Assembly (NCBI GenBank): GCA_949283775.1 | Contig: CASDTU010000002.1 | Span: forward strand, 1-48,866 | Direction: 5' to 3' | Source: an uncultured Bacillota bacterium | GTDB taxonomy: Bacteria > Bacillota > Clostridia > Christensenellales > Borkfalkiaceae | DNA: 48,866 nt | Shown: in pieces, positions 10,872 to 48,296 of the stretch | Position numbering within the stretch: the first letter of the stretch is position 1 | Layout: each line of letters opens with the position of its first letter | Position numbers and translations under genes: made by a program | Notes under the pieces: generated by a model | What the model was told of the DNA's origin: nothing | Seen by the model: the letters and a program-made list of their open reading frames with translations, nothing else | Databases searched by the model: none

Positions 10872-13073
10872 TTAAGTCAGCGAATTGTAGTAAAAACCTT
10901 TTCGCAACGTCAATAGCAGTTCAGCATCGGCAAGATCATAGGTAACCGTTTCCTCCATTTGCGAAAAACCGTAATTGGGAGTAAACTGTAAAAACTTGAC
11001 TACCGATTTACCCGATTCTTCACACAAAAGCGCAATTTCATCCATATAACTTTGCTGCTGAGATGCAACCGCCAATGTGATATCGATCGCTTCTATATCT
11101 TTCAACGACCAGCCGCTTCCAAGCGGATACTCCGTGCCGCTCACATTAGCTGTCAGATTGCCCTCTTCCTCCTTAAACAACACTATCAGATCTTCCGGAC
11201 GGCTAGAATCCGTCTTGATGCTTTGGCGTTTTTGACCCAATAGCAAGGCCTTTGAAAAACCTTCGCTGTTATCAATCTGTAAAGTTTCAACATACGTATA
11301 CCGTATACCATACGATGCGGCTGCGCCTTGATTAACGGCTTTATATACTTCGTAAATATATCGTTCTTGCGCATTTTTTCGGCAAACAAGCAATTCGTCC
11401 GGATCGCCCGCTAAATTCGATACAATTTCCGATAGTAAATTTCCGCCGCTGACAGATACGACTTCCCCGTTTTCATTATCGGCAAATATTTGCTCATCTT
11501 TCATAATGAGTCCGTTGTACCAATTATAGAAATAGGCAACCCTTTTACCGTTTTCCTCTTTGAGGACAACAAAATCATCGTTCGTGCCAGCCCACACTCT
11601 GGCTCTCGTCACATCGATCAATTCGCCTTCAAAAATCGAATCTAGATATCGGTTTTCGCCGCCGCTTATCCAACTGTCGTTGGCACTGTATTTATCAAAC
11701 GTTTCCGTCTGTCCGCCACCAATCGCCGTCAGTGTTTCCTGAATATACTTTTTATACGGCATGATATCTAAGTTATCGGTAAATTTCTGCTCGCTGGAAT
11801 CAATATAATTCGTCAGATCAAAATCAAGTCCGCTTCCTTCCGGATCCAATAAGATCTCGGTCATGCGCTTCAAAGACAAGCGCGCCGAAAAATTCGGTTT
11901 CTCTTCATAAAATGCCGTCAGCCCCTGTTCGCTCCCCGTTTCAATCGGATTTTCCGTCAGCCAAGGCGTATTATGAAAATTAAAAAAGTAATACCCCGGT
12001 TCATATTGGATCAACTTCGCCCCTGCATCCAAACAAAATTGCGTATAAATCGCCATAAACTCTGGCGTCGCATCCATCTCGTTTCGGATAAACCACTTCG
12101 TTCCGCCCTGTGTTGTCTTTAAATTGCTGGACGCCAAAGACTGCCATGCCCAACTTTGATTGCTTAGTCCCCAATAGGAATTCTCTAAGGAGCGATACGG
12201 GAAATTGCGGTCCATGTTATGAATAAACGCAAAGGGACGGAACGTGTTGTTCGCAAACAGTACCGTGAGCCGTTCTCCCATAATCGAAGACGCATACTTT
12301 ACAAGTTCGTCAAAAAACAAATTGTCGTGATAAGCCGGATTGCCTACATAGTCCCAGCTGTGATCGCTCCATACCAATTTCGATCCCATAGCGTCGAGCT
12401 CTTCTATGATCTGCTTTAAATCCCCTTCTTCCACCTTAAACCCGTGCGGATCGTTTTCCTGCCCGAGCTGATTCGAGCCGACCAACTCATGAAACCGTAC
12501 GCCTTCAATGATCGGATAATTCGCACGAAGCGCCTTCAATGTACTCAGATCCATCGTTAGGCCTCCGATCGCTTTTCCGTCGCCGTAAATGATTTCAGGT
12601 TTCGGCAGAGACGCCAACTCACCGTTTTGGTTCGTTCCGCAGTCGGAGGAATACAATTCAAGATAGACGGGTATATCATACGCGGTCAGTTTGGTCAATG
12701 CGTATTTTAGCGACTCGCCGATCCGATCCATGGGATCCGATGCGCCGTTCTGCGTAAAGCCCTGTGCCTTGTAACTGTGCTGCGGATTGATCAAAACGGC
12801 AACTTCAAATTTTTCTTTTAAAGGACTTAAACCACTTGCTATGTTTTCAAAAGCGAGGTCGTATGCCTCGTCGCCGGGAGAATACAGGGTCGTCAAGCCC
12901 TGTCCGCCCAGTCCCGCATCAATTTGAAACAGCAGCAAAGGGGTCTTGTCTTCCTTCCCTCCGCCTTCGGTCCCTTCATTGTTGCCGCCGCCGTTTTTCT
13001 GTGTACAGGCAACGGCGGAAAAACACAGTAAAACAGCCAATAGAATCGTAACGATCCGAATAATCCTCTTCAT
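10872..13073 (-). CDS. Secreted lipoprotein, paralog 1 of 4 (TIM-barrel-like plus FG-GAP-like)
   Basis: A 733-aa lipoprotein of a family I do not recognise by name. A lipoprotein signal ends at Cys23 (SAVAC), and a short G/N-rich linker follows. Residues about 45-430 look like a TIM-barrel enzyme domain, with conserved blocks shared by the four paralogs: NPQHSY, TNQNGELASLP, IYGDGK, EGVRFHELVGSN, HGF, LVWSDHSWD, GLSNQSWAW and IQYEPGYYFFN. The His, Asp and Glu residues in these blocks are candidate catalytic or metal ligands. Residues about 450-733 resemble calcium-loop beta-propeller repeats (for example FADNENGEVV and LAGDPDELLV). It is the last gene of a three-gene operon, 12 bp after its neighbour. 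A role as a surface glycosidase or glycan-binding protein is inferred from context. Confidence 0.75.
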   Translation of the reverse strand: MKRIIRIVTILLAVLLCFSAVACTQKNGGGNNEGTEGGGKEDKTPLLLFQIDAGLGGQGLTTLYSPGDEAYDLAFENIASGLSPLKEKFEVAVLINPQHSYKAQGFTQNGASDPMDRIGESLKYALTKLTAYDIPVYLELYSSDCGTNQNGELASLPKPEIIYGDGKAIGGLTMDLSTLKALRANYPIIEGVRFHELVGSNQLGQENDPHGFKVEEGDLKQIIEELDAMGSKLVWSDHSWDYVGNPAYHDNLFFDELVKYASSIMGERLTVLFANNTFRPFAFIHNMDRNFPYRSLENSYWGLSNQSWAWQSLASSNLKTTQGGTKWFIRNEMDATPEFMAIYTQFCLDAGAKLIQYEPGYYFFNFHNTPWLTENPIETGSEQGLTAFYEEKPNFSARLSLKRMTEILLDPEGSGLDFDLTNYIDSSEQKFTDNLDIMPYKKYIQETLTAIGGGQTETFDKYSANDSWISGGENRYLDSIFEGELIDVTRARVWAGTNDDFVVLKEENGKRVAYFYNWYNGLIMKDEQIFADNENGEVVSVSGGNLLSEIVSNLAGDPDELLVCRKNAQERYIYEVYKAVNQGAAASYGIRYTYVETLQIDNSEGFSKALLLGQKRQSIKTDSSRPEDLIVLFKEEEGNLTANVSGTEYPLGSGWSLKDIEAIDITLAVASQQQSYMDEIALLCEESGKSVVKFLQFTPNYGFSQMEETVTYDLADAELLLTLRKGFYYNSLT

Positions 13074-13085
13074 TCCTTTCTCACC

Positions 13086-15356
13086 TTATACATCCATATA
13101 ATAAAGTCCTAAGCGCAGCGTGAACAGAGCTTCGCATCTTTTCTGCAACTTGATCGTATCGTTCAACTTTTCAGCTTTACCGTTGTCAGCGTTTAAAGTA
13201 TAAAACTGCAACTCAAAAGTTCCGCCGTTTTCCACCGCGACGCAGAGTTCATCCCGCAGCGAAGCCTTTTGCTGCTCAACCGTTATCGTAACATCCGCCG
13301 AAGCCGCGGCCGTCACGTTGCCGCAGTTTATCTCATAAAAATGTACGCTGCCGTTTCCGGTGCCGCCATAAACTTTGATTCCGCTGTCCAAATTTTCCAG
13401 CACATAGAGTTCATCAAGATTCCGCATTCCGCTTTCCAACAACGCCGATCTTCTCGCACCCAACGCGACGATACCGTTAAAATTCGCCGCATCGATCTTT
13501 TCACTGCCAAAATAGTTGGAAAAGAACGTATCGCTGTTTTCATCTTTTTCCAGCTTGAACTCATAATAGTCCGCTTTGTCCGTGTTCATTGCCTTATAGA
13601 TGGTAAAGTTGATCTGCCCGTCCTTTTCCCGAGCAACGATCACTTCATCCGGATCGCCGGCAACATTATAATTGTATTTTTGTATGAAATTCCCGGCGGT
13701 TACGCCCACTACCGTTCCGTTTTCATCGTCGGCAAAGCTGACGGTATCCTTCGCCACCAACCCGGAATACGCATTGTAAACATACCCTACGTTCGCACCG
13801 TTTTCTCTCTTTACGACGAGAAAATCGTCGTTCGTTTTTGCCAGAGCATTGATTCGGCTGGTAAAGAGAATTTCTCCGTCCGTTACGGTCTTATAAAACC
13901 TTTCCGATTCGCTCTCGACAAACGTATCCGGCGTGTAAATATATCTGTCATATACCGACAGTCCGCCTTCGCCCAAAGCGGCGATCGTCGTCTGCACATA
14001 CTTTTTATACGGATTGGATGCCGTATTGGAATAATATGTATTTCTGTCTCCGTCTACAAAATCAGAAATGTGATCGGTTACCGCAGGGCTGAGTTTGTCC
14101 GCCAAAAGATAATCGATAAAGCGCTTTAAATTGATCCTCGCCGAAAAATCCGGCTTCTCTTCGTAAAACATAGGATTGCCTTCCGATTTGAGGTCGGTAA
14201 TCCCAACTTTGTTCATCCACGGCGTATTGTGCGTGTTGAAAAAGTAATAATCCGGCTCAAATTGAATGACCGACGCTCCCTGCTCCAAAAAGTCCAACGT
14301 ATACCCTGCCAAAACTTCGATCGGCGTATCCATCTCGGAATGCGCGTACCACTTCGTATTGCGCACACCGTTCGTTACAGTATAAGTGTTGCTGGAAGAA
14401 TACGATTCCCATATCCAGCTCTGGTTGCTTAATCCAAAATCCGTTCCCCTGTAATTTTTATACGGAAACGTCGCCTCTTCCCTTCCGACATAATCGCATA
14501 CATCCCAATTGTTGTTCGCCCAAATAAACGTGACGCGATTCTCTAACTTGTCAACAGCATAATCGATACAAGTCACAAAAAAATCATTCGGGTTATAATT
14601 CGGATCGTTGATCCCGTCCCAACTGTGATCGCTCCAATATAAATTCATGCCCGATTGATCGCAAGTATCGATGATCGCTTTTATCGTCGATTCCGTAACC
14701 AAAAAGCCGTGGTCATCTCCGTTCATTGCAATTTCATGCGTACCGACAAGTTCATGCATACGCACACCCAATACCGTATCGGGAAACCGCAATTTTATGT
14801 ACGAAAGCGTATCCATATCCATCGTGATTCCGGCGATCTCCTGTCCGTCGCCGTAATGCAGATTCGGCTTCGGCAACCTCGCCAACTCACCGTTTTGGTT
14901 CGTCCCGTTATCCGACGAATAGATTTCCAATACAACTTTGATCCCCTGTTTCTCAAACTGATCGATGGCAAAGATCAATCCGTCTTTCACGCGCTTTGCT
15001 TCGCTCGTCTCGTCTTTGATATAACTGTGCTGCGGATTGATCAGCACCGCAACATCAAACTTCTCCTTTAACGGCTGCAATCCTTCCGCAATGTTGTTCA
15101 GGCATTCCAAATAAAACGGATCATCCACCGAAAAGGATGTCGTTAACCCTCTTCCTCCCAAACCGGGATCGATTTGGAAAAGCAATAAACTTTTTTCTTT
15201 CATTGGCTCTTCTTCCTGCTCATTATTATTTTCATCATCGCCTATATTTGTATTGTTGTTATTGTTGTTGTTTGAATTTCCGCCGCTCGGAGAACAGCAT
15301 ACCAGCGACAAACACAATAAAACAGATAAAAGTATGGTAAATATTTTCTTTATCAT
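13086..15356 (-). CDS. Secreted lipoprotein, paralog 2 of 4
   Basis: A 756-aa paralog of the neighbouring lipoproteins. The lipobox LVCC gives Cys21, followed by an unusual low-complexity Asn-rich linker (NSNNNNNNNTN) and an acidic stretch. The enzyme-like region has the same blocks as its paralogs: INPQHSYIKDETSEA, DNGTNQNGELARLPKP, HYGDG, MDMDTL, GVRMHELVGTHE, LYWSDHSWD, WANNNWD, GLSNQSWIWES, and ASVIQFEPDYYFFN. The C-terminal third has beta-propeller-like segments (FADDENGTVVGV, NVAGDPDEVIVAREKDG). It lies 27 bp after paralog 3 and 12 bp before paralog 1. It appears most similar to paralog 1, suggesting a recent tandem duplication. No EC activity can be assigned from sequence alone. Confidence 0.75.
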   Translation of the reverse strand: MIKKIFTILLSVLLCLSLVCCSPSGGNSNNNNNNNTNIGDDENNNEQEEEPMKEKSLLLFQIDPGLGGRGLTTSFSVDDPFYLECLNNIAEGLQPLKEKFDVAVLINPQHSYIKDETSEAKRVKDGLIFAIDQFEKQGIKVVLEIYSSDNGTNQNGELARLPKPNLHYGDGQEIAGITMDMDTLSYIKLRFPDTVLGVRMHELVGTHEIAMNGDDHGFLVTESTIKAIIDTCDQSGMNLYWSDHSWDGINDPNYNPNDFFVTCIDYAVDKLENRVTFIWANNNWDVCDYVGREEATFPYKNYRGTDFGLSNQSWIWESYSSSNTYTVTNGVRNTKWYAHSEMDTPIEVLAGYTLDFLEQGASVIQFEPDYYFFNTHNTPWMNKVGITDLKSEGNPMFYEEKPDFSARINLKRFIDYLLADKLSPAVTDHISDFVDGDRNTYYSNTASNPYKKYVQTTIAALGEGGLSVYDRYIYTPDTFVESESERFYKTVTDGEILFTSRINALAKTNDDFLVVKRENGANVGYVYNAYSGLVAKDTVSFADDENGTVVGVTAGNFIQKYNYNVAGDPDEVIVAREKDGQINFTIYKAMNTDKADYYEFKLEKDENSDTFFSNYFGSEKIDAANFNGIVALGARRSALLESGMRNLDELYVLENLDSGIKVYGGTGNGSVHFYEINCGNVTAAASADVTITVEQQKASLRDELCVAVENGGTFELQFYTLNADNGKAEKLNDTIKLQKRCEALFTLRLGLYYMDV

Positions 15357-15383
15357 CTTAAAGTCCCCTTCAATTTTTTCCGA

Positions 15384-17624
15384 TTAAAATCCCTTTAAAT
15401 ACGTGCCGATTTTACAGCCGAAAATCAAATCCGGACAAAACGAACCGAGCGCAATGCTTTCAGACATGATTTCGAGAGTTTCGATATCGATAAACTTGAC
15501 CGTATACGAACCGCCAATCTCTACGACTGCTGCAATTTCATCGATAAAATCACCGTTTATATCGACGGGACAGCAGGCGACAACTTTGCCGATATCTTCA
15601 ACGACGGATGCTTCGTTGTTTAAAATCACTTTCAAGTCTGTATTTTCTGCATAGACGGCCGCCGCTTTCGTATCGATCGGCCGCGTCATATCGCCCAAAA
15701 CCGCATTGCGCGTACGCACGGCAAACGTCTTTACATATCCCGCCGCCGATCCGTTCGAAATGTATTGCAATACCCGATCGGATATTTCCTTCGCGGCGGG
15801 ATAAAGTTCAACGTCCTGCGTTACAGTGGAAGAACCCGTCGAAACGGAATAAACGGAATATTTTAACGCGCCGTCCTTTTCCCTTACAAGCACGATCTCA
15901 TCCGCATCGCCGCCCAAGGAATGAACATAATCGGAAATCAAATTGATCGAAAAGACGTCCACAACTTTACCGTCTTCATTGTCTGCAAAGAAATCGTTCT
16001 TCGCCAGCAGCCTCCCCGAACGATAATTGTAAAATTCCAGCCGAACGCCGCCGCTTTCCTGCTTCGCCACCATAATCTCGTCTCCGCAGCTGAAAGCAAG
16101 CGCGATCCGCGATGCGGCGATCACGTCATCCGTCACGATATATTCGCGCAGTCGGTTTTCGCTCTGTTCGTACCACTTGCTGTAATCGCTGTTGTATTTA
16201 TCGTATACCTGCAACTCCCCGTCTTTCGCAAGATACAATGTATTTTGATAATACCGTTTCGGCGGATCCGACTCCTTGTTCGCGACATACTTATTATAAT
16301 CGGTATCGTAATAATCGGTCGGATCGGTCGAGATGACTCCGCTGCCGTCTTCCAATATATAATCAATAAACCGCTTTAACGTGAGTTTCGCAGAATAATC
16401 GCTGTTATCTTCGATCGACGATACCGGTATTGCACTGTCATTGCGCGGAGAATAGGAATTGAAGAAATACTGTATCGGTTCAAACTGTATTAGGGATGCG
16501 CCCTGTTCGATCGCGCGCAGCGTAAACATCGCCATGATTTCAGGAGGACAATCCAGATCTGCGTCAATATACCATTTCGTCGTCCCCGTCGCATCCTGCA
16601 TCGTACTGCAATCCAATTCCTGCCAGAACCAATCCTGTACACTCGCGCCGAAAGACGTACCTTTATAATTCTTCAACAAAAAATCATCGACTATGTATTG
16701 ATGGATCGGCCAACCGTTATTCGCCCAATTCAAAGTAAGCTGATTCGATTGCAACTTCGAAACGGCATAATCCAACCAACCCTTGATCTCCTTTGCCGTC
16801 TCTACGTCATATGAGGCGCCGTATTCCCCGTTGCGCCCAAGCAAGCTCTTTTCCAACACGTTCCAGCTGTGATCGCTCCAAACAAGTTTCAGCCCCGTTT
16901 CCGCAACCGTGTCGATGATCGTCTTAACGACTTCCTCCTGCACGACAAATCCGTGCGAATATTCTTCATTTCCCTGCGCCCTGTCGCTGAGTCCGATCGA
17001 ATGCGTGCCGATCAACTCATGAAAACGGATTCCCTCAAAATAATAGTCAAATTCTTCCCGCAGCGCCTTCACGGTATCCATATCCATCGGAAGCCCGGGC
17101 CAGGTCTGATCATCGCCATAATGAAGCGCAGCCGGAGCATTGGTCCCCAATTCTCCGTTCTGATTGGTGCGTATTCCGGACGAATGCATTTCCAAATAAA
17201 AAGGAATATCTTTTCTGCGGAAATAATTCAATGTAAATTTCAGTTCCGGAGAAATTCGATTCAAAGGTTCTGAAGGATCTTCTCCGTTATATCCTTCCGC
17301 CCGATAGTGCCACGTCGGATAAATTTGAACGACTACGTCAAAATCCTCCATTAAAGGCTCCAAGCCGTTATAAATATTGTCCAGCGCCTTTTCAAGCTCT
17401 GTCAGATCATCCCTGTATTTATAAATCAGTTCCTTGCTTCCTGCCGCGCCTCCTTCAATTTCAAACATAAGTTTTACGCGCTGTTTCGGCGTTTCGGGCG
17501 TTGTGGGAGTTCCACCCTCTTCCTCCGAAGACGGCGGCGTATTGACGCTCGGCGTCGTTGCCGCACAGCCTACAAGAAAACACAGCACCAGCAATAAACA
17601 AAAAAATTTTATAAAGCGTTTCAT
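15384..17624 (-). CDS. Secreted lipoprotein, paralog 3 of 4
   Basis: A 746-aa paralog with lipobox LVGC (Cys20) and a Pro/Thr/Glu-rich linker. The enzyme-like region keeps TNQNGELG, HYGD, MDMDTVKAL, FEGIRFHELIGTHS, HGF, LVWSDHSWN, WANNGW and ASLIQFEP. It has YPTWHYRAEGYNGEDP where paralogs 1 and 2 have NPQHSY, grouping it with paralog 4. The C-terminal region contains a clear FG-GAP/VCBS-type calcium loop, DINGDFIDEIAAV, plus GGDADEIVLVREKDG, supporting a beta-propeller. It is the first gene of the three-gene operon, with its own promoter at 17643-17672. Confidence 0.76.
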   Translation of the reverse strand: MKRFIKFFCLLLVLCFLVGCAATTPSVNTPPSSEEEGGTPTTPETPKQRVKLMFEIEGGAAGSKELIYKYRDDLTELEKALDNIYNGLEPLMEDFDVVVQIYPTWHYRAEGYNGEDPSEPLNRISPELKFTLNYFRRKDIPFYLEMHSSGIRTNQNGELGTNAPAALHYGDDQTWPGLPMDMDTVKALREEFDYYFEGIRFHELIGTHSIGLSDRAQGNEEYSHGFVVQEEVVKTIIDTVAETGLKLVWSDHSWNVLEKSLLGRNGEYGASYDVETAKEIKGWLDYAVSKLQSNQLTLNWANNGWPIHQYIVDDFLLKNYKGTSFGASVQDWFWQELDCSTMQDATGTTKWYIDADLDCPPEIMAMFTLRAIEQGASLIQFEPIQYFFNSYSPRNDSAIPVSSIEDNSDYSAKLTLKRFIDYILEDGSGVISTDPTDYYDTDYNKYVANKESDPPKRYYQNTLYLAKDGELQVYDKYNSDYSKWYEQSENRLREYIVTDDVIAASRIALAFSCGDEIMVAKQESGGVRLEFYNYRSGRLLAKNDFFADNEDGKVVDVFSINLISDYVHSLGGDADEIVLVREKDGALKYSVYSVSTGSSTVTQDVELYPAAKEISDRVLQYISNGSAAGYVKTFAVRTRNAVLGDMTRPIDTKAAAVYAENTDLKVILNNEASVVEDIGKVVACCPVDINGDFIDEIAAVVEIGGSYTVKFIDIETLEIMSESIALGSFCPDLIFGCKIGTYLKGF

Positions 17625-17642
17625 TTCTTCTCCCCCTTTTTA

Positions 17643-17672
17643 ATTATACTGTATTTTTTCGGTTTTTGTAAA
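17643..17672 (-). promoter_or_regulatory. Promoter of the three-lipoprotein operon
   Basis: TTTACA (17672-17667), an 18-bp spacer and TATAAT (17648-17643) on the minus strand, just upstream of paralog 3. It lies after a large hairpin that probably ends the preceding operon. Confidence 0.7.
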
Positions 17673-17770
17673 CAACTTCCTTTCAAAATATTTTTTGCCT
17701 TTACAAAACCTTAAAAATATATCTTATCCGACAAGCCTTATTGCAATCGAACATCGGTAGCGTTCTGCCG

Positions 17771-17809
17771 CGCCGCAGTATTTTTCGCGGAGCGAAAAAT
17801 ACTGCGGCG
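17771..17809 (-). terminator. 18-bp perfect hairpin after GH38-like gene
   Basis: A perfect 18-bp stem (17771-17788 with 17792-17809) with a 3-base GGA loop. It lies 35 bp after the 829-aa gene stop and before the promoter of the next operon, so it probably separates the two transcripts. No clean T-run follows, so its terminator role is inferred. Confidence 0.6.
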
Positions 17810-17843
17810 GACACGCTTGCTTTTTGCATGGTCAAAATAATGG

Positions 17844-20333
17844 TCATTTTTTGATCAGGATCGTATGAATCTGCATAGGGTTCGTTTCAAACTCCCGTCC
17901 GCAAGGCTCCATCGGTTCTCCGAAGCTGTTTGCTCTGTACAATTTTCCGTCTGTCAGTTTTCCTATTAAGCGGATCGTACCCTTTTTCTTCTTATCTTCG
18001 CGGATCCGAAGGATGCGGCCGTCTTTTGAATCGAATACGGCAATCAGTTTGCCGCCCTCTATTTGCAGAAAATCCGCAGTATCAACGGCCGCACGCCCGC
18101 TCATGACGAGCGGTTGTACCGCGAAGGAGTACAACAAATCCGAAACGGCCGAAATATCGCCCTGATGCGGCAACAAAGCAAACTCATACGTATAATCGCC
18201 TTCCATCCATTGGGGGAAATTCGTACCCCACTGATTGTTAAAAAGATTTATATATATTTTCGCATCCGAACGGGATTCATATTCTCCCTTAAATTTATAA
18301 ACCGCCGATTCGCCGATCGAAAAAAGCGGTGCGTCCTGCGAAAGGACCGCTATGGACTTTTCTCCGTCCGTAATATCAACAAAATTTTCCATGCAATACA
18401 TCTTGTTGTTTGCATCTTTTGCTATATCGCGGGCAGGATCAAGCAGCGTCCCCACTTTATTGATCGTATATTCAGGGTTTGTCAAATTCAGATCAAACAC
18501 AAAACTGCCGCCTTCCACATACGGCGTCGCCTGCTTTTCTTGCAACGATACGCGCACGTTCAATGCCTTTCCAAGCACCGTATATACAACGCGAAGCGAA
18601 ACGGCGTTTCCGTATTCCCGAACACTCTGCTCCGAATTTACATATTCGCAAACGATCGAATCACCTTCAAACATTGCCCTTACAAGGGTCGGCTTAAATT
18701 CGGCTCCCGCAAAATTTACAGGATAACTCAGCCTTCCGAAATCGTTGACGGACCAATCATAAAACCGATACGAATAGGCGCGAATATATTCGGCTATGGC
18801 ATTGCTGGACACGATTTCATATTCATATCCGCAACCCTTGCAATAATTTTTACCCGTCGCCGCATCCGTCAACAACACGATGGCTCCGCTGTTCTTGTCG
18901 ACGGAAACGGTAATTTCATCGCCTATGATCGTCAGACAGTTTTCTTTTTCAACGAGAGAATACCCCTCGGATTCCGCCGTTTCTTCGATCTTTAAAATTT
19001 GAAATTCCAAAGGCTTTAAATGCAGATGCGCATAGGTTTTGCCGGCACTTTGCAAAATTTTAACGCCCTTTCCGCCACACGACAATCCTCTGCCCTGCGG
19101 CACACATCCGCTTACGTCCACAAATCCGTCTTTTTCGGCCGCTTCGGGATTGAAAACGGATATACAGTCAGAATTTTTTTCAAGAAACGCCCCTTCCACG
19201 AGATCCTGTAACCGATCGGTCAAAGAAACGGCCGCCTTTGCACGAGAACGCTGTTCTTCCCAAGACTCCTCAATCCGCTTATACGAATCAAAGCTTGCGC
19301 GCTCTTTTAAGAAACTTTGTTTATCGTAACTGCGCGCATACCCCAGCGTCGTTTTCACGTCCAGCCCCCACGTGTGCTCTCCGAATAAAATTGCATTTTC
19401 ATAGATCTCTTCGACGATGTCGCGCACGTCCAGCCCCTTTAAAGAAGCCAGCGTCTGCAGGGCGCAGACTCTGTTTCTGTTCCTTCGCAGCGACGCGACT
19501 TCCTTCGGATAAGAGCCTACGCCATGAATCCACGTATCTGCAAAATCTGACCTGATCACGGGCAGACGACTCAAATCGCAGCGCGAAATTTCCCGATAAA
19601 AGTCATCCATCGTTCCAACCACCATCTTTGTATCCGGTAAAACGGCATGGATTTTCTTTTCAAGATTTTCCACGATTTCGGGAGATTGCGGCCCGATATT
19701 GTCGTTTGACTGAACCAGAGCCAGCCAGACCGGAAATTCCCAGTCTTTCGGCGGCATCAGGTCGCTGCCGTAACCGCCTTTGTTGTAAAATGTCAGAACG
19801 CGAGAACCGTCGGGACCTTCCCACCAAAACAGCAACGGTAGATCCACCGGCTTACTTGCGGAGTTTACCCCCAAATGCAAGAATTTAACGCCTGCATTCG
19901 CCAAAATTGTAGGCAAAATATGCGTATGGCCGGGTACGTCCGTCATCTTTGCCGCGATCGGCATTTCAATTCCGTAGCGCTCTTTCGCTTTCTTTGCGTA
20001 ATTGCATACCCTGTTCAACTCTTCCAGCCCCAAAAATTCCGTATGCATCGTAAAAGGAAGCGCGTGAATCTTCATTTGGCCGTTTTTGATAAGCTCAATA
20101 GCTTCTTTCCGATCCTTTTCTTCTGCGTTTGCCAGCGTCTGCAAAAACACCCAGGCGGCAAAAGTCCATATAAACTTCTTATCTCCGCGATCGGATGTGC
20201 TCCTACAAGTAACCAGAATATCGCGGAGCATTTTGCCGCTGTACCGCTTCATCAATTCCCTGGCCAGCTCCGTAAATCCTATATCAAAATGCGTTTTAAA
20301 AACAGTAATGATCTTTTTTTCCATATTCCTCAC
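17844..20333 (-). CDS. GH38/DUF5054-like glycoside hydrolase, copy 2
   Basis: An 829-aa cytoplasmic protein (no signal peptide) resembling the alpha-mannosidase-type GH38 superfamily, probably the DUF5054 branch. In GH38 a zinc ion is held by the HxD motif, the nucleophile Asp and a later His. Equivalents here are His15-Phe-Asp17 in THFDIGFT, Asp132 in MTDVPGHT (aligning with the IDPFGHS nucleophile motif) and His320 in GEHTWG. The remaining C-terminal half is beta-sandwich-like, as in the family. The start is GTG at 20333 with GAGGCGG upstream; an ATG three codons later (20324) is equally plausible. It is clearly paralogous to the 22490-24955 gene. The substrate is unknown; alpha-mannose is the family's usual sugar but is not proven here. 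Confidence 0.75.
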   Translation of the reverse strand: MRNMEKKIITVFKTHFDIGFTELARELMKRYSGKMLRDILVTCRSTSDRGDKKFIWTFAAWVFLQTLANAEEKDRKEAIELIKNGQMKIHALPFTMHTEFLGLEELNRVCNYAKKAKERYGIEMPIAAKMTDVPGHTHILPTILANAGVKFLHLGVNSASKPVDLPLLFWWEGPDGSRVLTFYNKGGYGSDLMPPKDWEFPVWLALVQSNDNIGPQSPEIVENLEKKIHAVLPDTKMVVGTMDDFYREISRCDLSRLPVIRSDFADTWIHGVGSYPKEVASLRRNRNRVCALQTLASLKGLDVRDIVEEIYENAILFGEHTWGLDVKTTLGYARSYDKQSFLKERASFDSYKRIEESWEEQRSRAKAAVSLTDRLQDLVEGAFLEKNSDCISVFNPEAAEKDGFVDVSGCVPQGRGLSCGGKGVKILQSAGKTYAHLHLKPLEFQILKIEETAESEGYSLVEKENCLTIIGDEITVSVDKNSGAIVLLTDAATGKNYCKGCGYEYEIVSSNAIAEYIRAYSYRFYDWSVNDFGRLSYPVNFAGAEFKPTLVRAMFEGDSIVCEYVNSEQSVREYGNAVSLRVVYTVLGKALNVRVSLQEKQATPYVEGGSFVFDLNLTNPEYTINKVGTLLDPARDIAKDANNKMYCMENFVDITDGEKSIAVLSQDAPLFSIGESAVYKFKGEYESRSDAKIYINLFNNQWGTNFPQWMEGDYTYEFALLPHQGDISAVSDLLYSFAVQPLVMSGRAAVDTADFLQIEGGKLIAVFDSKDGRILRIREDKKKKGTIRLIGKLTDGKLYRANSFGEPMEPCGREFETNPMQIHTILIKK

Positions 20334-20354
20334 CGTCCGCCTCAGAGCTTGCCG

Positions 20355-22493
20355 CTATAACGCTATATAGGAAGTCGTCTTACGGAAGGACTCCGCATAT
20401 TGAATATTTTCTATTCCCGTTTCCAGAGTTGTTCCGGTATTATAGATCTCCGATCCTTCGAAATAATAAAATTTTATGGAACTGCCGTGCACGATCGCTA
20501 TTTCATCGACACAGTCCAGATTCACATCGCACGCAAAAGCGCCGACAAAATTTTCCGGCAGCGGAATTTCCGCCTGCTGTACGGAATAGTCGCCGACCGC
20601 GCCGTTCAATACAAGCTTATCCGCCTGTTTTGTGATCACGATTACGGAATCGAGCGGTCTCGTTCCGTTCAAAAGCCTTGCATTCCTTGTTCGGATTCCC
20701 AAAACATCCACAAACGTATCCGTCGTAAAATCGGTGCCGTATTCCTGCCGAAACGTCTCCGTCAACGCATCGTTGGGTTCGTACGCAAATGCTTTCCGCA
20801 CATTGACGTTTGAAACCTTACGCAATTTATATACGGTAGGCGTTATGACCGAACCGGCCTTGCGGAATACAACGATCTCATCGCTGTCTCCGTCAAACCC
20901 TAACTCGGAAACCAGATTGATCGCCACCGCGTCCACAAACGTTCCGTCTGTGTTGTCGGCAAACATCTGCGCGTTTTCGTATATCAGTGCATTCGTGTCC
21001 GAATAAATTTGCGCTACGGCATTGCCGTTCACTGTCTTTTTCACCAAGTACTGATCGAACTGATTGTAAGACAAATTGATGCGCATGATCTTATCGGCTC
21101 CATCCGTGACCCTTTCACGGAAATACGGCGTTTCATAAGTATATGTCTGATCGGCATCCGAACTGTATTTGTTAAAATATTCCGTATCTGTTTCTCCGAA
21201 TACGCCGATCGTCGTCTGATAATATTTTTTAGGCTTTTGAAGCTCTAAGTTATTGTTTAGACTGCTTTCGGAAGACGCATAATAATCCGCAACCGTCAAA
21301 CTGGGGAAATTGTCATAATTGTCCGCCAAAAGAAATTCTTTTACCTTATCGAATTTTAAAGTAGCCGTAAAATCAGAGATACCTTCGTTATATCCCGTTT
21401 GATCCGGAGCGCTTTCGCCCGAATAATTGCAGTTAAAGAAATATCCGACGGGCTCAAACTGCACCATCGACGCTCCGCGATTGATCGCGTCCAGCGTAAA
21501 GACCGCGGATAATTCTGCCGGCATATCGATTTCGGAATCTTCATACCAATCGTTGCCCATGACCACTTCCGCCTCGGACCAAAACCAGCTCTGATTGCTC
21601 AGTCCCCAACGTCTGCCGTATTTGCCGTCGTCCATAATGTCCTTTAACTTGATGGAATTCAAAACATAGCGACTGTTGTTGTTGAAATTGATGATCAGAT
21701 TTTCACCCAACTGCTCCGATACTTTTTCAATCACTTCCTGCCACCATTCCTGCGTGTAGTCGTTGTAAACGAGCGTCCAGGAATGATCTCCCCACACCAA
21801 CGTTTTATTGTTTTTCTCCACAACGTCCGCAATGGCATAGATCGTATCCACATCCACTTCAAATCCGTGTCCGTTTCCCGCCTGAATGTTGGATCCGATC
21901 AATTCATGAAACCGCACGCCGCGCACCGACGGATATGCCTGCATCAAAGCGTCTAGGGCTTCCATATCCAGCGGCAAACTCTTTACCGTTTCCGTATCGC
22001 CGTAATGTAGCGGAACCAGCGGCAAATTCCCGAGCTCTCCGTTTTGATTCGTATATACGCCGGATGAATACGCTTCCAGATAAATCCCGTACTGCGTATT
22101 GCTGAAATATTGCAACGTATGCTTCAATTCATTGGATATGCGGTTTAACGGATTGGATGCGTCTCCGCCATAGCCGTTTTCCGAATAATGCCAATTCGGA
22201 TAAATTAAAAACGATACGTCATATTTTTCCGTTAAGGGCTCTACCGCCTCGATCATGTTGGAAAAATATTCATCCATTTGATCCAGATCGTCCTTATATT
22301 TTGTCGTCAAACCTTTTCCGGAAATTCCTTCGTCCATCAAAAACAGCAATTCCACCTTTTCGTTTCCCGTCTCATCTTTCCCGCCGTCGGGCGGCGTATC
22401 GGATGTCGTCGGCTTAGTATTGCATGCGCTCAAAATTGCCGTTCCGCTTATTAAAATAAGCAACGCCATGATAAGTGAAATAATTTTTTTCAT
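20355..22493 (-). CDS. Secreted lipoprotein, paralog 4 of 4
   Basis: A 712-aa paralog located apart from the other three, between the two GH38-like genes. The lipobox LSAC gives Cys24. Conserved blocks are NWHYSENGYGGDA, TNQNGELGNLPL, HYGDTE, MEALDAL, VRGVRFHELIGSN, HGFEVD, LVWGDHSW, GLSNQSWFWSEA and ASMVQFEPVGYFFN. The C-terminal domain includes FADNTDGTFVDAVAINLVS, FDGDSDEIVVFRK and DVNLDCVDEIAIVHG, calcium-loop repeats of a beta-propeller. The start ATG overlaps the stop of the upstream GH38-like gene by ATGA, indicating translational coupling. The interleaving of lipoprotein and GH38-like genes suggests the two proteins act on the same glycan in successive compartments (inference). Confidence 0.77.
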   Translation of the reverse strand: MKKIISLIMALLILISGTAILSACNTKPTTSDTPPDGGKDETGNEKVELLFLMDEGISGKGLTTKYKDDLDQMDEYFSNMIEAVEPLTEKYDVSFLIYPNWHYSENGYGGDASNPLNRISNELKHTLQYFSNTQYGIYLEAYSSGVYTNQNGELGNLPLVPLHYGDTETVKSLPLDMEALDALMQAYPSVRGVRFHELIGSNIQAGNGHGFEVDVDTIYAIADVVEKNNKTLVWGDHSWTLVYNDYTQEWWQEVIEKVSEQLGENLIINFNNNSRYVLNSIKLKDIMDDGKYGRRWGLSNQSWFWSEAEVVMGNDWYEDSEIDMPAELSAVFTLDAINRGASMVQFEPVGYFFNCNYSGESAPDQTGYNEGISDFTATLKFDKVKEFLLADNYDNFPSLTVADYYASSESSLNNNLELQKPKKYYQTTIGVFGETDTEYFNKYSSDADQTYTYETPYFRERVTDGADKIMRINLSYNQFDQYLVKKTVNGNAVAQIYSDTNALIYENAQMFADNTDGTFVDAVAINLVSELGFDGDSDEIVVFRKAGSVITPTVYKLRKVSNVNVRKAFAYEPNDALTETFRQEYGTDFTTDTFVDVLGIRTRNARLLNGTRPLDSVIVITKQADKLVLNGAVGDYSVQQAEIPLPENFVGAFACDVNLDCVDEIAIVHGSSIKFYYFEGSEIYNTGTTLETGIENIQYAESFRKTTSYIAL

Positions 22494-24955
22494 CTTTCCT
22501 CCGCTTTTTCAAGCAAAATCGTCTTGGTTTCATTTGCTTGAAAATTTAATTTGACTGATTTACAGTTCTTTCCGACAACAAAAAGTTTTCGTTCAAACAG
22601 ATCGCATTCCGTTAAAACCGCATCGGCAAATTGGCCGCTGAGTACAACCTTTCCCGAAGTGTTTTCCTTTCTCTTTATCCTTAAAAGAAAAGATTCGTCT
22701 CCTGCGCTCTTGATGTCGATCAATTCCGCCCCCGCAAGTTTGATCGCATACCGATCTTTCCCGCCTTCCGCAAAAATGGGCGGCGAAATCAAATTTTCGA
22801 TCTTATCCAAAACCGATTTCGAAGCGGCATGCGGCAGCAAATCAAAAGTAAAGTTGAAATCGCCTTCTATCCACTGCGGAAAGTTTGTCCCCCACATCGT
22901 ATTTGCCAAATTCACATAAATCTTGCAATCCCTGCGCTTTTTATAAATCGGTGAAAATTTATACAAAGTCTGTTCTCCGATCGAAAAGAGCGGAGCATCG
23001 TGCGACAGCAATGCGAGCGCGTTCTCTCCGTCCGATATGTCCACATAATTTTCCATGCAGTACAGGATATTGTTTCCTCCGACCGCAATGTCGCTCTCCG
23101 GATCGACGATCGACCCCACTTTGTTGATCTTGTACGTCGGGTTTTGAAAATTGAAATCAAATACGTAATGGAGCGCCTCAACCATGGGGGTCGCCTGTTT
23201 CTCGGACAGCTTCACCTGGATCCGCAGGCGGTTTCCGAACAGCGCATAAAAAACGCATATCGACTTGGCGTTGCCGTATTCTTCATAGCTAAACGGATCT
23301 TTCGGCTGAAAGACGACCTCCACTCCGCCGTTGTACTCCCGTACGCTGACAGCTTGCGCGATATCCGTAAAATGCTCAAATTTATCGGGATATGCCATCC
23401 GCCCGTGCGCCGTTACGACCCAATCGTAAAAATAATAGGCATATTCGCGCAAATACTCACAGATCTCTTCGTAATTGCATACGTCGTACTGGTAATATCC
23501 GGCCGCAAGCGCATAGTTCTTTTTTGTCGCCGTGTCATAGTATTCGATCACTGTTCCGCTCGTCTTTGATATGCGAACATATGCCGCATCGCTTTTGATT
23601 TCATAATACATGCCATAGTCCGCTACGTTTGAAACGTCCGGCTTTTTAAACGCGCGCTCAGAAACGGTCCGCAGACCGGGAATTTTTACCTGCGAATACA
23701 GACGATCACCGATGCGAGCGCATTGCTTCTCCCGATTTAATGCCGTATTCTCTTCAACGGCGACAACGCCGTCGAAGGATATAGCCGACGGATTGAAACA
23801 GTTCTTACCGTCTCCGCGAATACGCTCGTACAACTTCTGCGTTTCGGCGACGGCATAGGAACAACGGTCGCGCTGTTCCTGCCAGGACGCTTCCATACGG
23901 AGGTAATTTTCCTGTCTGCGCATCGTTTGAAAACTCTCTTTGTCGTAGCGTCTGTCATAATTTAAATCCACTATGACGTTCAGTCCCATCGTATGCTCGC
24001 CGTATAAAATAGACGCATCGTAAATGTCGTAAATTTGGCGGCGGATCTCTGCATCCGTCTTCAAAAATAGGTTATAATATTTTTCGGTCGCCGTCAACAG
24101 CCTGCGGTTTCTGCGCAGAAGCGCGGTCTCCTTCGGATAAGACATAATTCCGTGTATCCAGCTGTCCGCTATGTCCTGCCGGACGACGGGCAAAAACGTG
24201 AGGTCGTATTTTGAAATCTCGCGATAAAAATCATCCATCGTTCCGACCAAAAAGGAACAGCCGTTCCCGTACTGTTTTTTTACGACCTGCTCGTACCTTT
24301 CCACATCCGCGGCTGTTTGCGGCCCCGTATTGTCGTTCGTCACGCGCAGCCATATCCATACGGGCAGTTCCCAATACTCGGGAGGCGTAAGATCCGTACT
24401 GTAACTGCCCTTGGAATATATGGTCAATACCCTGCCGCCGTCAGGTCCTTCCCACCAAAAGACAGGAGGCAGATCCGCGGGATGACTCCCCGGATTACAG
24501 CCGATATGCATAAACTTTACGCCCGCTTTCGCTAATAGCGAAGGAAGCAGCCATGTATGCCCGGGAACATCCGTCATCTTCGCCGAAATCGGATAAGAAA
24601 GCCCGTATCGATCGCAAAATTCTTTGCTGAATAAAAATACTCTATTTAATTCTGCCTCGCCTAAAAATTCCGTATGCGTAGTAAAGGGAAGCGCGTGTGC
24701 AAGCAACTGCCCCTGCCGGATCAAATTTTCCGCTTCCGCCTTATCTTTTGCATCCGCAATTTCTAAAACTTTTAATAAAGGCCAGGCAGGCATAGTCCAT
24801 TTAAAACTTTTTTCTTTTCCCAAAAATGCCGTATCTTGACATGTCTTAATAACGGCTTTCAGCATTTTGTCTTTATATTCTTGCATGATCTCAGGAAATA
24901 AACCTGTAAATCCAATATCAAAATGGGTCTTACATACCGATATAATCTTTTCCAT
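22490..24955 (-). CDS. GH38/DUF5054-like glycoside hydrolase, copy 1
   Basis: An 821-aa cytoplasmic paralog of the 829-aa gene. The start at 24955 gives MEKIISVCKTHFDIGFT, as in relatives; a longer frame to 25003 would run into an intergenic hairpin and is rejected. Putative metal and catalytic residues are His11 and Asp13 (HFDIGFT), Asp129 in MTDVPGHT and His321 in GEHTMG, all matching the GH38 pattern. The middle carries VGTMDDFYREISKYD and IADSWIHGIMSYPKE, shared with the paralog. The C-terminus is a beta-rich domain. It follows the solute-binding protein gene after a stable hairpin and overlaps the next lipoprotein gene by 4 bases. Probably it acts on imported oligosaccharide. Confidence 0.76.
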   Translation of the reverse strand: MEKIISVCKTHFDIGFTGLFPEIMQEYKDKMLKAVIKTCQDTAFLGKEKSFKWTMPAWPLLKVLEIADAKDKAEAENLIRQGQLLAHALPFTTHTEFLGEAELNRVFLFSKEFCDRYGLSYPISAKMTDVPGHTWLLPSLLAKAGVKFMHIGCNPGSHPADLPPVFWWEGPDGGRVLTIYSKGSYSTDLTPPEYWELPVWIWLRVTNDNTGPQTAADVERYEQVVKKQYGNGCSFLVGTMDDFYREISKYDLTFLPVVRQDIADSWIHGIMSYPKETALLRRNRRLLTATEKYYNLFLKTDAEIRRQIYDIYDASILYGEHTMGLNVIVDLNYDRRYDKESFQTMRRQENYLRMEASWQEQRDRCSYAVAETQKLYERIRGDGKNCFNPSAISFDGVVAVEENTALNREKQCARIGDRLYSQVKIPGLRTVSERAFKKPDVSNVADYGMYYEIKSDAAYVRISKTSGTVIEYYDTATKKNYALAAGYYQYDVCNYEEICEYLREYAYYFYDWVVTAHGRMAYPDKFEHFTDIAQAVSVREYNGGVEVVFQPKDPFSYEEYGNAKSICVFYALFGNRLRIQVKLSEKQATPMVEALHYVFDFNFQNPTYKINKVGSIVDPESDIAVGGNNILYCMENYVDISDGENALALLSHDAPLFSIGEQTLYKFSPIYKKRRDCKIYVNLANTMWGTNFPQWIEGDFNFTFDLLPHAASKSVLDKIENLISPPIFAEGGKDRYAIKLAGAELIDIKSAGDESFLLRIKRKENTSGKVVLSGQFADAVLTECDLFERKLFVVGKNCKSVKLNFQANETKTILLEKAEER

Positions 24956-24989
24956 GTTTTGCCTGCGATTATAATGCTTATAATTTTTG

Positions 24990-25035
24990 AAAGGCAGTAA
25001 CAAAGAAGAATGTTCATTCGTTTGTTACTGCCTTT
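24990..25035 (-). other. Intercistronic hairpin after the solute-binding protein gene
   Basis: A 15-bp perfect stem (24990-25004 with 25021-25035), with a loop that can itself pair GAATG with CATTC. No T-run follows on the minus strand. Hairpins at this place often protect binding-protein mRNA from 3' decay or partially reduce expression of downstream genes; that role is inferred. Confidence 0.7.
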
Positions 25036-25067: not shown

Positions 25068-26786
25068 CTATGCAGCGTTCTTTTTCGCTACAAATTCATC
25101 GACTTGTCTCTGTACTTCCGCGATCAGTCCGTCAATGTTTGCCGCCTCTAAGTCCGCCAAAAGCCTTGCATATTTCGTTGTAGCCGGGCTTCCGACCTCT
25201 TCATCCAAAGCAGAACGGCCGTCCGCAAATTCCGCCGCAAGCGTCATTGCCGCCATTACGTTTGCCTTATTGTTTTTCAATGCAGGCACCGTTTCATCCA
25301 AAACAAAACCGATCAGAGGATTTACAACATAATTCAACGGCTCGCCGTTTTCATCATCTTTCTCCCAATAAATTCTCGAAAGGATATATTCATCTGTCAA
25401 ATTTTTCGACCAACGCGTCATGTTGATATCCGTAACCGTCCAGTTCGGGAAATTGACCGCATACCGTTTATCCGCAGGAATATTCACCTTGATCTCTTCG
25501 CCGTTTACTTCTTTAACGGTCGAATAGGAGAAATAATGCACCAAAACATCTTCGCCGTCTTCGTTCTGGATCGTCTTTTCATCGGCAAAATAATTTTCAC
25601 CCTCTACGCCATAGCAGAACAGATCGTAGTTGTCCTGCGATTCGCGGATCCAGTTGAAGAAGTCGATCGCTTCATTCGGATTTTTCGAGAAGCTGAGCAC
25701 CGCCAACATATTGTCCGCGCCCGTCATAACGTATTTCGGCGCATCTTCGTTCAAATACACATCATACAGCGCTGCGCTAGAACCTATCGGCTGCTGTGCC
25801 ATAAATTCATCGATACGCTCCGCCTGTTTCAAAACAACGTTCCAAAGACATCCTGCCATTCCCGTATAGAAACGATAATCATGGCCCGTCAAGGAGCTTG
25901 CACCGTCTTCCGGCGTATATCCGGCATCTACCCAAGAGGTTGCCGTCTCCGTCCATTGAATGAACGCTCTCGATTCATAGAAATTCTTTACGTCGTAACT
26001 TCCCTTTGCGTTTTGCTGCGTTATGTCGATATAAAGCGGCCGCTGTGCATAATAAATGATCGGGAAATAATAACCGGGTGCATATTCACGCAGAACGAAC
26101 GTATTGCTGTGTTCGCCCATGTTCGCCCAGAAACCTTCCTTCTTGACGCCGCCCTCCAAACCGATACCTTCCGTGTTGCTGATTTCTGCAAAATATTCCG
26201 TAACGTCTTCGACCGTATTGATCTCCGTGATCCCAACCTGATCCATCCAATCCTTACGAACGGCGAGCGTTTCTTTGTAATCCGCAAGCGGCACGTTTCT
26301 GGGAATCGCATAAATATTCCCGTCTTTCGGATTCGTGACCTGATCCCACGCATAATCTTTGATCGTCGCCTTCAACGCCGAACCGTATTGTTCCAGATAC
26401 GGCGAAACATTCATCAATGTGCCGCGCGCCAACAAACTCGAAAAATCATCGATATAGACAAACGCTGCATCCAACCCTTCGTTTTTCGTCATGTTTTCAA
26501 TATCGGTTATGTAGTTCGTTTCCGGAACAAATTCAAACTCAACCGAATACGGTCTGCCGTCTTTTTTCAGATCAGCATTGATCGCCTTTACGACGTTATC
26601 GACATCATTCGCTTCCTCACCGCGAAAAGCGATCTTTACCGTGGTTTCTCTAAGCTCCGCAACTTCGATCGGTTTTAGCGTCGTACCGCCGCCGCCACCG
26701 CCGTCTCTGCTACATGCAGACAAAAAGCTCATGCACGATATTCCGGTTACACCGGCTAAAATCAATGACAAAAATCTTTTCTTCAT
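25068..26786 (-). CDS. Sugar ABC transporter solute-binding lipoprotein
   Basis: A 572-aa extracellular substrate-binding lipoprotein of a carbohydrate importer. A signal peptide ends in lipobox LSAC with Cys25, followed by a Gly-rich linker. The long length and the following LplB/LplC-type permeases match the LipO/LplA polysaccharide-importer subclass. Aromatic residues in the cleft region, typical of sugar binding, occur throughout (for example YAPGYYFPIIYYAQRPLYID). It is 15 bp after the second permease gene and is followed by an mRNA hairpin. No ATPase gene is present in the locus, so a shared MsmX-like ATPase must power it (known arrangement in Bacillota). Confidence 0.9.
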   Translation of the reverse strand: MKKRFLSLILAGVTGISCMSFLSACSRDGGGGGGTTLKPIEVAELRETTVKIAFRGEEANDVDNVVKAINADLKKDGRPYSVEFEFVPETNYITDIENMTKNEGLDAAFVYIDDFSSLLARGTLMNVSPYLEQYGSALKATIKDYAWDQVTNPKDGNIYAIPRNVPLADYKETLAVRKDWMDQVGITEINTVEDVTEYFAEISNTEGIGLEGGVKKEGFWANMGEHSNTFVLREYAPGYYFPIIYYAQRPLYIDITQQNAKGSYDVKNFYESRAFIQWTETATSWVDAGYTPEDGASSLTGHDYRFYTGMAGCLWNVVLKQAERIDEFMAQQPIGSSAALYDVYLNEDAPKYVMTGADNMLAVLSFSKNPNEAIDFFNWIRESQDNYDLFCYGVEGENYFADEKTIQNEDGEDVLVHYFSYSTVKEVNGEEIKVNIPADKRYAVNFPNWTVTDINMTRWSKNLTDEYILSRIYWEKDDENGEPLNYVVNPLIGFVLDETVPALKNNKANVMAAMTLAAEFADGRSALDEEVGSPATTKYARLLADLEAANIDGLIAEVQRQVDEFVAKKNAA

Positions 26787-26801: not shown

Positions 26802-27677
26802 TTAACCTTTTACAGCCCCTACAATAATGCCTTTTATGAAAAATTTCTGCACAAACGGGTATACCAAAACGATCGGTCCCATTGTTACAAACATTGTTGC
26901 CAAATATACTGTGTTGATCGGAATTGCCGTCCCGCTCCCTTGGCTCGAGCTGGCATCCGAAGTGATGCGCGTATGTAGCATATATAAATAATATTGCAGA
27001 GGATATAAATCGTCTTCCCGAATAAACCAGGTAGCCAAATACCAGTCGTTCCAATACCCCAACGCGATAAACAATACGATCGTTGCCGTGATCGGCGTCG
27101 CGAGCGGAAACATGATCTTGAAGAAAATTTGGAACGGGCTTGCCCCATCCAGCTCTGCCGATTCGGAAAGTGAATCCGGAATGGTTTTATAATAGTTCCG
27201 AACCAGGAAAATATTATATACACCGATCAGACTCGGCACAATTAAAACCGCCAGCGTATCTTTTAATTTCAATACATACGCTATATTATAATACCACGCA
27301 ACGACACCGGTACTGATGATCGTAGGAATATAAAAATACAATGCGATTTGATTCCTTCCCCACACTTTTTTGGACGAAAGCGCAAATCCTGCCATTGATG
27401 TCAAAAATACACTGATCGGCGTGCCGATAACCGTAACGCGAATCGTTACCCAATATGCTTTTAAAATATCGTTCGTTTCGAACAAATATTTATATGCCGC
27501 ACCGGAAAAACCAGAAGGGAAAAAGGAATACCCTTTTTGAATAATCGACTGCTCCGTACTGATTGAAGCGATAAACGTAAGCAAAATCGGATAAATGATT
27601 GAAATGCTCGCCAATACAAAAAACAAATGTAACAAGACTTGTTCTAATCTGACAGCCTTATCATTCTTTTCTACCAT
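26802..27677 (-). CDS. Sugar ABC transporter permease, LplC/YtcP type
   Basis: A 291-aa inner membrane permease with six predicted helices. The EAA loop that contacts the ATPase is visible as SLSESAELDGASPFQIFFKIMFPLATP. The N-terminus MVEKNDKAVRLEQVLLH precedes the first helix. It pairs with the 343-aa permease upstream (20-bp gap) and the solute-binding lipoprotein downstream. The C-terminus FVQKFFIKGIIVGAVKG is characteristic of MalG-like carbohydrate permeases. Confidence 0.93.
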   Translation of the reverse strand: MVEKNDKAVRLEQVLLHLFFVLASISIIYPILLTFIASISTEQSIIQKGYSFFPSGFSGAAYKYLFETNDILKAYWVTIRVTVIGTPISVFLTSMAGFALSSKKVWGRNQIALYFYIPTIISTGVVAWYYNIAYVLKLKDTLAVLIVPSLIGVYNIFLVRNYYKTIPDSLSESAELDGASPFQIFFKIMFPLATPITATIVLFIALGYWNDWYLATWFIREDDLYPLQYYLYMLHTRITSDASSSQGSGTAIPINTVYLATMFVTMGPIVLVYPFVQKFFIKGIIVGAVKG

Positions 27678-48273: not shown

Positions 48274-48296
48274 GAATTGTCAAGTTAAGTGCAACA
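48274..48296. repeat. Terminal inverted repeat of the IS30-family element (one end)
   Basis: The sequence GAATTGTCAAGTTAAGTGCA and the next bases resemble IS30-family ends and contain the transposase stop codon (48285-48287). The other end lies outside the window. Confidence 0.6.

Follow-up and report, generated by a model that had tools for sequence, protein, structure and literature searches.

Paralogous putative lipoproteins of an uncultured Clostridia bacterium as a candidate propeller-bearing branch of the GH98 superfamily

We have analysed a 48,866-nucleotide stretch of DNA (hereafter the window; contig CASDTU010000002.1 of assembly GCA_949283775.1) from an uncultured Bacillota bacterium of the Borkfalkiaceae, in which one locus encodes four paralogous proteins, labelled a, b, c and d in order of coordinates. 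Our comparisons of sequence and predicted structure suggest, with a probability of roughly two in three, that these are cell-surface glycoside hydrolases (GHs) that make up a divergent branch of the GH98 superfamily with a predicted propeller; they would cut a glycan and feed the products to an importer. Homology of the predicted barrel to GH98 is well supported by fold and profile comparison, family residues correspond to those of the GH98 active site, and a conserved importer module accompanies the family.

Results

Predicted fold

AlphaFold2 (AF2) was run on the seven members found in the window's genome at full length and on nine barrels alone. The full-length model (predicted TM-score, pTM, 0.77) consists of an alpha/beta barrel of eight strands with a propeller-like domain C-terminal to it, and the barrel modelled alone reaches a pTM of 0.85; the barrel suggested by a first-pass annotation, made from the sequence alone, holds up as a prediction. 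When the PDB was searched with Foldseek, the full-length model returned GH98 structures at ranks 1-6 (E 2.1e-8 to 1.4e-7). The barrel alone returned nothing but GH98 at ranks 1-15 (E 1.0e-8 to 1.1e-6), with GH20 at rank 16. GH98, to which Sp3GH98, Sp4GH98, RgGH98 and BACOVA_03433 belong, shares the TIM-barrel fold with the family and is its best fold match.

The C-terminal domain of c appears in the AF2 model as about five four-stranded blades, with partial Foldseek matches to TolB, RSL lectin and NHL propellers, and we regard the propeller as a prediction of moderate confidence. The calcium-loop propeller of the first-pass annotation survives in part: a propeller is predicted and acidic D..DE turns occur, but a pattern search found only two or three turns per protein and no regular calcium-loop repeat. 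PF08307, the C-terminal beta-sandwich domain of GH98, has no match in the four proteins or in the 14 rows of the family alignment; in these models the predicted propeller replaces it. In a viral structure library, the barrel drew six matches at E <=0.001, the best being KDO8P synthases (4.5e-6) and a hexosaminidase (3.8e-5); the name GH98 was absent among the 50 matches listed.

Profile comparison with GH98

Profile-profile alignment with hhalign supports the same kinship. Family counts here and below use 13 of the 14 alignment rows, the protein of L009 being identical to that of L014. The GH98-model set consists of PF08306 hits, ten used out of 13 loci; L032 (below cut-off, with an internal stop), L034 (itself a family member) and L043 (sharing its frame with L041) were excluded. 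The 13 family barrels against these ten proteins gave a probability of 96.0% and a score of 71.7 over 187 columns, and 95.8% and 70.2 with roles swapped, whereas the best of 100 block-shuffled controls scored 32.2 and the reversed control 15.4. GH20 beta-hexosaminidases, the next-best fold match after GH98, carry no such signal (11 of 14 loci used; 3.5%, score 28.2), and kinship to them was dropped, the score lying within the range of the shuffled controls. GH35 was likewise dropped at a score of 25.1 with nine of 14 loci, a profile depth similar to that of the GH98-model set; a first GH35 control with two sequences only had scored 20.5.

Ordinary sequence recognition fails for this family. 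No Pfam or NCBIfam match passes the cut-off for any of the four proteins; a has none up to E 1, and b has weak matches only, far below the cut-offs. Pfam, by hmmscan on the 14 alignment rows, likewise left the family unrecognised at cut-off. Searches with c gave nothing usable in the PDB (phmmer, a single match at E 0.36) or in PHROGs and no match in a plasmid collection, and BLAST of the family against the GH98-model proteins found nothing significant. The first-pass annotation, which could not place the proteins in a named GH family and suggested that they may be a new or poorly described one, was therefore right as far as Pfam, NCBIfam and PDB sequence searches go, but fold and profile-profile comparison tie the barrel to an established CAZy family, as a divergent branch of its superfamily. 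The structure prediction and fold search that it proposed yielded the expected TIM barrel with conserved acids, though not the expected lack of a CAZy relative.

A Bacteroidales member, L013, itself passes the PF08306 model in a genome search (23.9 bits against a cut-off of 23). Its genome also holds two clear GH98-model proteins (55.5 and 34.8 bits in that search). From this genome come the GH98-model proteins L031:1459-3594 and L033:1138-3291, of 711 and 717 amino acids (aa), each with a Por secretion tail. Across the phylum to which this genome belongs, PF08306 matched two of 395 genomes, one being L013's own and the other matching below cut-off; in the phylum of L012's genome it matched seven of 240.

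Correspondence of active-site residues

Residue numbers follow protein c unless stated. A phmmer search of the PDB aligns the GH98-model protein L031 with Sp4GH98; at the Glu of its GIESGENFW segment, 2wmf and 2wmh also have Glu but chain 2wmg has Ala, and this Ala is read as the mutated general acid of Sp4GH98. In the hhalign register the Glu of the family's GIRFHE segment (Glu203) falls at the GH98 general acid position. Through the same chain of alignments, the Asp of Sp4GH98 GSSTDTWKW corresponds to that of L031 GTWNDEWCW and then to Gln330 of family GASVQDWFW, while Sp4GH98 FECAAY corresponds to L031 METSSF and then to family QFEP (Glu382). We take the three Sp4GH98 residues to be 158, 251 and 301, numbers whose spacing agrees with the L031 alignment at all three places. 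The general acid of RgGH98 is given as Glu411 (PMC8730463), and a GH98 enzyme of B. ovatus is described as losing activity when its key catalytic Glu361 and Asp467 are both replaced (PMC4491172); the 361-467 spacing suggests that Asp467 of BACOVA_03433 is the strand-7 Asp.

Conservation was counted at these positions, with the GH98-model counts taken from a single MAFFT alignment. The strand-4 Glu is present in all 13 members, 10/10 GH98-model proteins and 6/6 of the virus-encoded relatives described below; the strand-5 acid in 13/13, 7/10 and 6/6; and the strand-8 Glu in 13/13, 6/10 and 6/6. A strand-7 G-x5-W-x-W motif, shared with the family, occurs in 8/10 GH98-model proteins. The strand-7 position itself differs: Gln in 13/13 members, against Asp in six, Glu in three and Gln in one (L042) of the GH98-model proteins, and Glu in four and Gln in two of the viral proteins. 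Further residues invariant in the 13 members include Glu145, Glu158, Asp181, Arg200, His202, His224 and Asn302-Asn303. QNGE is found in all 14 family rows (NQNGE in 12/14) and in none of the ten GH98-model or six viral proteins. The suggestion that conserved acids mark an active site is borne out to the extent that invariant acids are predicted at the ends of barrel strands in 13/13 members.

The four proteins and their paralogues

The open reading frames (ORFs) of a to d are intact and have the lengths and arrangement first described (Table 1), with gaps of 12 and 27 bases between the tandem genes a, b and c, and with d between two GH38-like genes. The products are homologous end to end, at pairwise identities of 32.7-41.0%. 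The sequence blocks noticed at first reading recur with small variations: NQNGEL is present in all four, a has IYGD for HYGD and QYEP for QFEP, RFHELIG becomes RFHELVG in a and RMHELVG in b, and d has WGDHSW for WSDHSW. The lipobox, said to be common to all, fits a PROSITE-type pattern in three; b is the exception, reading LVCC.

Seven members were found in the window's genome, from eight matches of which two fall in one protein; three of the members lie outside the window on other contigs. Among the genomes of relatives, three of 201 have a match, own included. Within the phylum ten of 398 pass the threshold, only the own genome convincingly; the other nine were rejected, eight matching within the first 85 profile positions (the signal sequence) and one over a 110-position part at 21.3 bits. 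A pattern scan of one genome per species over 84,980 species gave 60 stretches, of which four were confirmed, all in metagenome-assembled genomes (MAGs): a Bacillota MAG with two members (L011), a Victivallales MAG with one (L012), a Bacteroidales MAG (L013) and a Clostridia MAG (L014). In the orders of L013 (1/247 genomes) and L012 (1/47) the family was found only in the starting genome. The family is rare, and its scatter across three phyla suggests transfer among lineages. One alignment row, that of L012 to judge from its extra C-terminal stretch, has an F5/8C-type domain (E 5.6e-16), in keeping with an enzyme of glycans.

The tree, which took in five of the six viral proteins, pairs a with b (100/100), groups d with Bacteroidales member L013 (100/99) and pairs c with L002, a paralogue elsewhere in the genome (97/94). 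The locus therefore gathers old lineages, and a recent fourfold duplication was dropped as an explanation. Different specificities of the window paralogues are likely; that they divide labour on one glycan, as first proposed, is possible.

Virus-encoded relatives

Two scans of IMG/VR viral contigs (four loci plus one contig) yielded six barrel proteins on five contigs. Two, of 311 and 316 aa, have a membrane-type segment at the N-terminus, and four have a different C-terminal part (about 450 aa). The hhalign comparison with the window family gave 99.2% and a score of 147 (99.0% and 137 with roles swapped), against 94.8% and 63.7 with GH98 (91.8% with roles swapped). These one-domain barrels are the closest relatives of the family barrel and have the same Glu, [QE] and Q[FY]E positions, but lack the propeller. 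The loci are L044:2314-3249, L044:426-1793, L045:2743-3693, L047, L049 and L050; L044 carries two different one-domain barrels, and L047 and L049 are near-identical, L049 being cut by the contig end. The neighbourhood examined, that of L045, contains a capsid-family gene (PF05065, E 2.2e-6), and the virus barrels are possibly virion-linked glycan cutters.

Gene neighbourhood

The window cluster spans 10872 to 33760 on one strand, with a GntR/LacI-type regulator diverging from it. In L052 and L053 (own genome), and in L014 and L054, members are surrounded by relatives of the importer genes, of the large multidomain protein and of the membrane protein; L053 has another module order, and L054 is truncated where its contig ends. 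Six of the genome's seven members lie in three clusters with this ATP-binding cassette (ABC) importer module, which also accompanies members in two related genomes (L014, L054). Around the seventh (L051/L002), the 19 kb searched held no relatives of other window genes.

The first GH38-like protein of the window has a 41% identical relative beside the two members in L011; in the second, the DUF5054 match is below cut-off. The GH38-like relatives in L011 and L054 likewise match both Glyco_hydro_38N and DUF5054. In L011 the DUF5054 and GH38 C-terminal models are above cut-off and PF01074 below; in L054, where the protein is 51% identical over 371 residues to the window's, both models are just below. 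Beta-galactosidase-type neighbours occur in L011 (GH35), L013 (GH35, GH2) and L054 (GH2). L013 also has GH92 and, in its cluster, a SusD-type gene, and L011 has GxGYxYP and GH43 proteins. The 731-aa protein encoded beyond the regulator, whose membership of the cluster may or may not hold, has a 42% identical relative directly beside a member in L011 (frame 11991-14459) and is possibly another unnamed carbohydrate-active family.

Uroporphyrinogen-decarboxylase-family proteins lie near some of the loci. They are clear in L013 (18415-19470, 20849-21889), while L011:18343-19380 resembles one of these at 21% similarity only and window frame 37192-38421 reaches E 0.05 only; such neighbours might demethylate methylated sugars. 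Towards the window's edge are a 640-aa ORF (46215-48137), in which a PadR-type regulator domain close to the N-terminus precedes a long stretch lacking a confident match, and an integrase core domain (rve; 48285-48833), a possible mobile element.

Table 1 Coordinates and basis of features in the window
Feature	Position	Strand	Basis
GH98-related putative lipoprotein a, 733 aa	10872..13073	minus	ORF; aligned active-site positions E196, D237, Q306, E358
GH98-related protein b, 756 aa	13086..15356	minus	ORF; signal sequence, non-standard lipobox; E202, D243, Q312, E367
GH98-related putative lipoprotein c, 746 aa	15384..17624	minus	ORF; the one modelled
C-terminal propeller-like all-beta domain of c, about residues 459-746 (predicted)	15387..16250	minus	AF2 secondary structure
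Barrel domain of c, residues 47-453 (stretch modelled alone)	16266..17486	minus	AF2 strands; Foldseek ranks 1-15 GH98
Codon of c Glu382 (QFEP, end of strand 8), proposed base	16479..16481	minus	Aligned with Sp4GH98 Glu301; Glu in 13/13 members
Codon of c Gln330 (GASVQDWFW, end of strand 7), place of GH98 catalytic Asp	16635..16637	minus	Alignment chain; Gln in 13/13 members
Codon of c Asp251 (WSDH, end of strand 5), invariant acid	16872..16874	minus	Asp or Glu in 7/10 GH98-model proteins
Codon of c Glu203 (GIRFHE, end of strand 4)	17016..17018	minus	hhalign chained to Sp4GH98 alignment; Glu in 13/13 members
NQNGE loop after strand 3 of c, residues 154-158	17151..17165	minus	Hallmark of family
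GH38-like protein (PF01074, DUF5054), presumed alpha-mannosidase	17844..20333	minus	PF01074 E 5.3e-10, above cut-off
GH98-related putative lipoprotein d, 712 aa	20355..22493	minus	ORF; E197, D236, Q301, E347
Second GH38-like protein	22490..25003	minus	PF01074 E 3.5e-9, above cut-off
Solute-binding protein (DUF3502)	25068..26786	minus	Library match; relatives in L052, L053, L014, L054
ABC permease	26802..27677	minus	PF00528; relatives in L052, L053, L014, L054
ABC permease	27698..28729	minus	PF00528; relatives in L052, L053, L014, L054 (fragment in L054)
Large multidomain protein (PKD, Y_Y_Y)	28805..32347	minus	Library matches
Presumed membrane-anchored module protein	32480..33760	minus	No Pfam match above cut-off; relatives adjoin members in L052, L053, L014, L054
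GntR/LacI-type regulator, divergent from cluster	33974..35050	plus	Library match
731-aa protein	34994..37189	minus	No Pfam match above cut-off; relative in L011

Discussion

Taken together, our observations favour a surface enzyme related to GH98, and we infer catalysis, its stereochemistry and the role of each residue as follows. Anchored outside the cell, as the signal sequences would have it, the proteins would hold a glycan in the cleft of the TIM barrel and cut it by single displacement. Glu203 would donate the proton, and Glu382, helped by the invariant Gln330 and by Asn302-Asn303, would take over from the GH98 Asp in positioning or activating the attacking water. The adjacent solute-binding protein would capture the released oligosaccharides for import through the two permeases, and the GH38-like enzymes would complete their breakdown, joined in relatives by GH35 and GH2 beta-galactosidases. 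The substrate may be a branched glycan containing alpha-mannose and perhaps beta-galactose.

Several observations weigh against this proposal. The hhalign signal is clear only with ten GH98-model sequences, falling to 0.3% with two, and HMMER comparison of the family with the GH98-model proteins found nothing significant (best E 0.02 in the 23-frame set). None of the 14 alignment rows exceeds the curated PF08306 cut-off by hmmscan, and the model has no match in 199 genomes of the window's phylum, own included, in 14 control genomes, or in L012's own genome, although a family member is present there. A family profile searched against the PDB reached three esterase chains at E 2 and no GH98 chain, and the TM-scores of the barrel to GH98 are moderate, at 0.44-0.48 by query length. 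In the active site, the Gln position appears from residue spacing to be that of one key catalytic residue of the B. ovatus enzyme, and the strand-8 Glu, our proposed base, is replaced in four of ten GH98-model proteins (Q, S, S, G). Finally, the suggested substrate draws on neighbouring genes only; no beta-galactosidase gene was identified in the window, and GH35 has no match in its genome.

An invariant Gln in the place of the catalytic Asp would also fit barrels that had lost catalysis with this exchange and now served as glycan receptors, each paralogue capturing its own glycan for the ABC importer. A putative lipoprotein adjoining a solute-binding protein, a propeller domain that may bind sugars, and several diverged paralogues in a single locus would suit such a role. 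Yet the acid Glu, the strand-8 Glu, Asp251, Glu145, Glu158 and Asp181 are invariant in 13/13 members, unusual for a dead enzyme, and two members (L002 and L011:4786-7140) in which reading the start region revealed no signal sequence fit an enzyme better than a surface receptor; we consider receptors unlikely. Nor does it seem likely that the proteins are glycosidases of another mechanism, whether by amide-assisted activation of water or as retaining, transferring or phosphorolytic enzymes using Glu158 or Asp181. Invariance of Asp181 and the confinement of the QNGE loop to the family could be accounted for in this way, and GH95 enzymes are described as having Asn residues instead of a carboxylate base (PMC4491172), a precedent for the amide-assisted route. 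Glu382, however, still provides a carboxylate at the position of Sp4GH98 Glu301, and phosphorolysis would be unlikely given the presumed extracellular location.

It might also be argued that the family is a true GH98 subfamily, an endo-beta-galactosidase or endo-xylanase differing in detail only. Residue correspondence and fold would agree with this, GH98 already includes a xylanase (PMC4491172), and L042 shares the Gln. Against it stand the replacement of the Asp251 equivalent of Sp4GH98 by Gln in every member, the lack of any PF08307 match, and scores below the family cut-off for all but one member in one kind of search, so that we find a mere subfamily improbable. Because we found Gln at the strand-7 position and a predicted propeller in place of the C-terminal domain, the four proteins are not filed as GH98 members.

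Preferring, then, a divergent and catalytically active branch of the superfamily, we can envisage a bolder version of it, offered tentatively. The proteins may constitute a new GH family sharing a clan with GH98, in which Asp has been lastingly replaced by Gln and catalysis proceeds via a Glu/Gln/Asn water-activating site or the QNGE loop. The same barrel would act in viruses of microbes as a one-domain glycan cutter, and the strand-7 residue would switch among Asp, Glu and Gln across the superfamily.

Glycan-uptake gene clusters of bacteria generally combine a regulator, an importer, a surface lipoprotein and exo-glycosidases. The window cluster has the same composition, but the position presumed to be endo-acting is held by the family described here instead of a named GH.

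None of the papers searched calls proteins related or similar to GH98, which to our knowledge has been a small family without described close kin. If the proteins are active, GH98 would widen to a superfamily of three branches: classical enzymes, propeller-bearing lipoproteins and virus-encoded barrels. The family would then offer a natural experiment on the role of the strand-7 acid. A likely backbone-cutting step of a group of importer-linked glycan loci in uncultured bacteria would have been given a name, with the mannosidase and galactosidase neighbours narrowing the range of candidate substrates.

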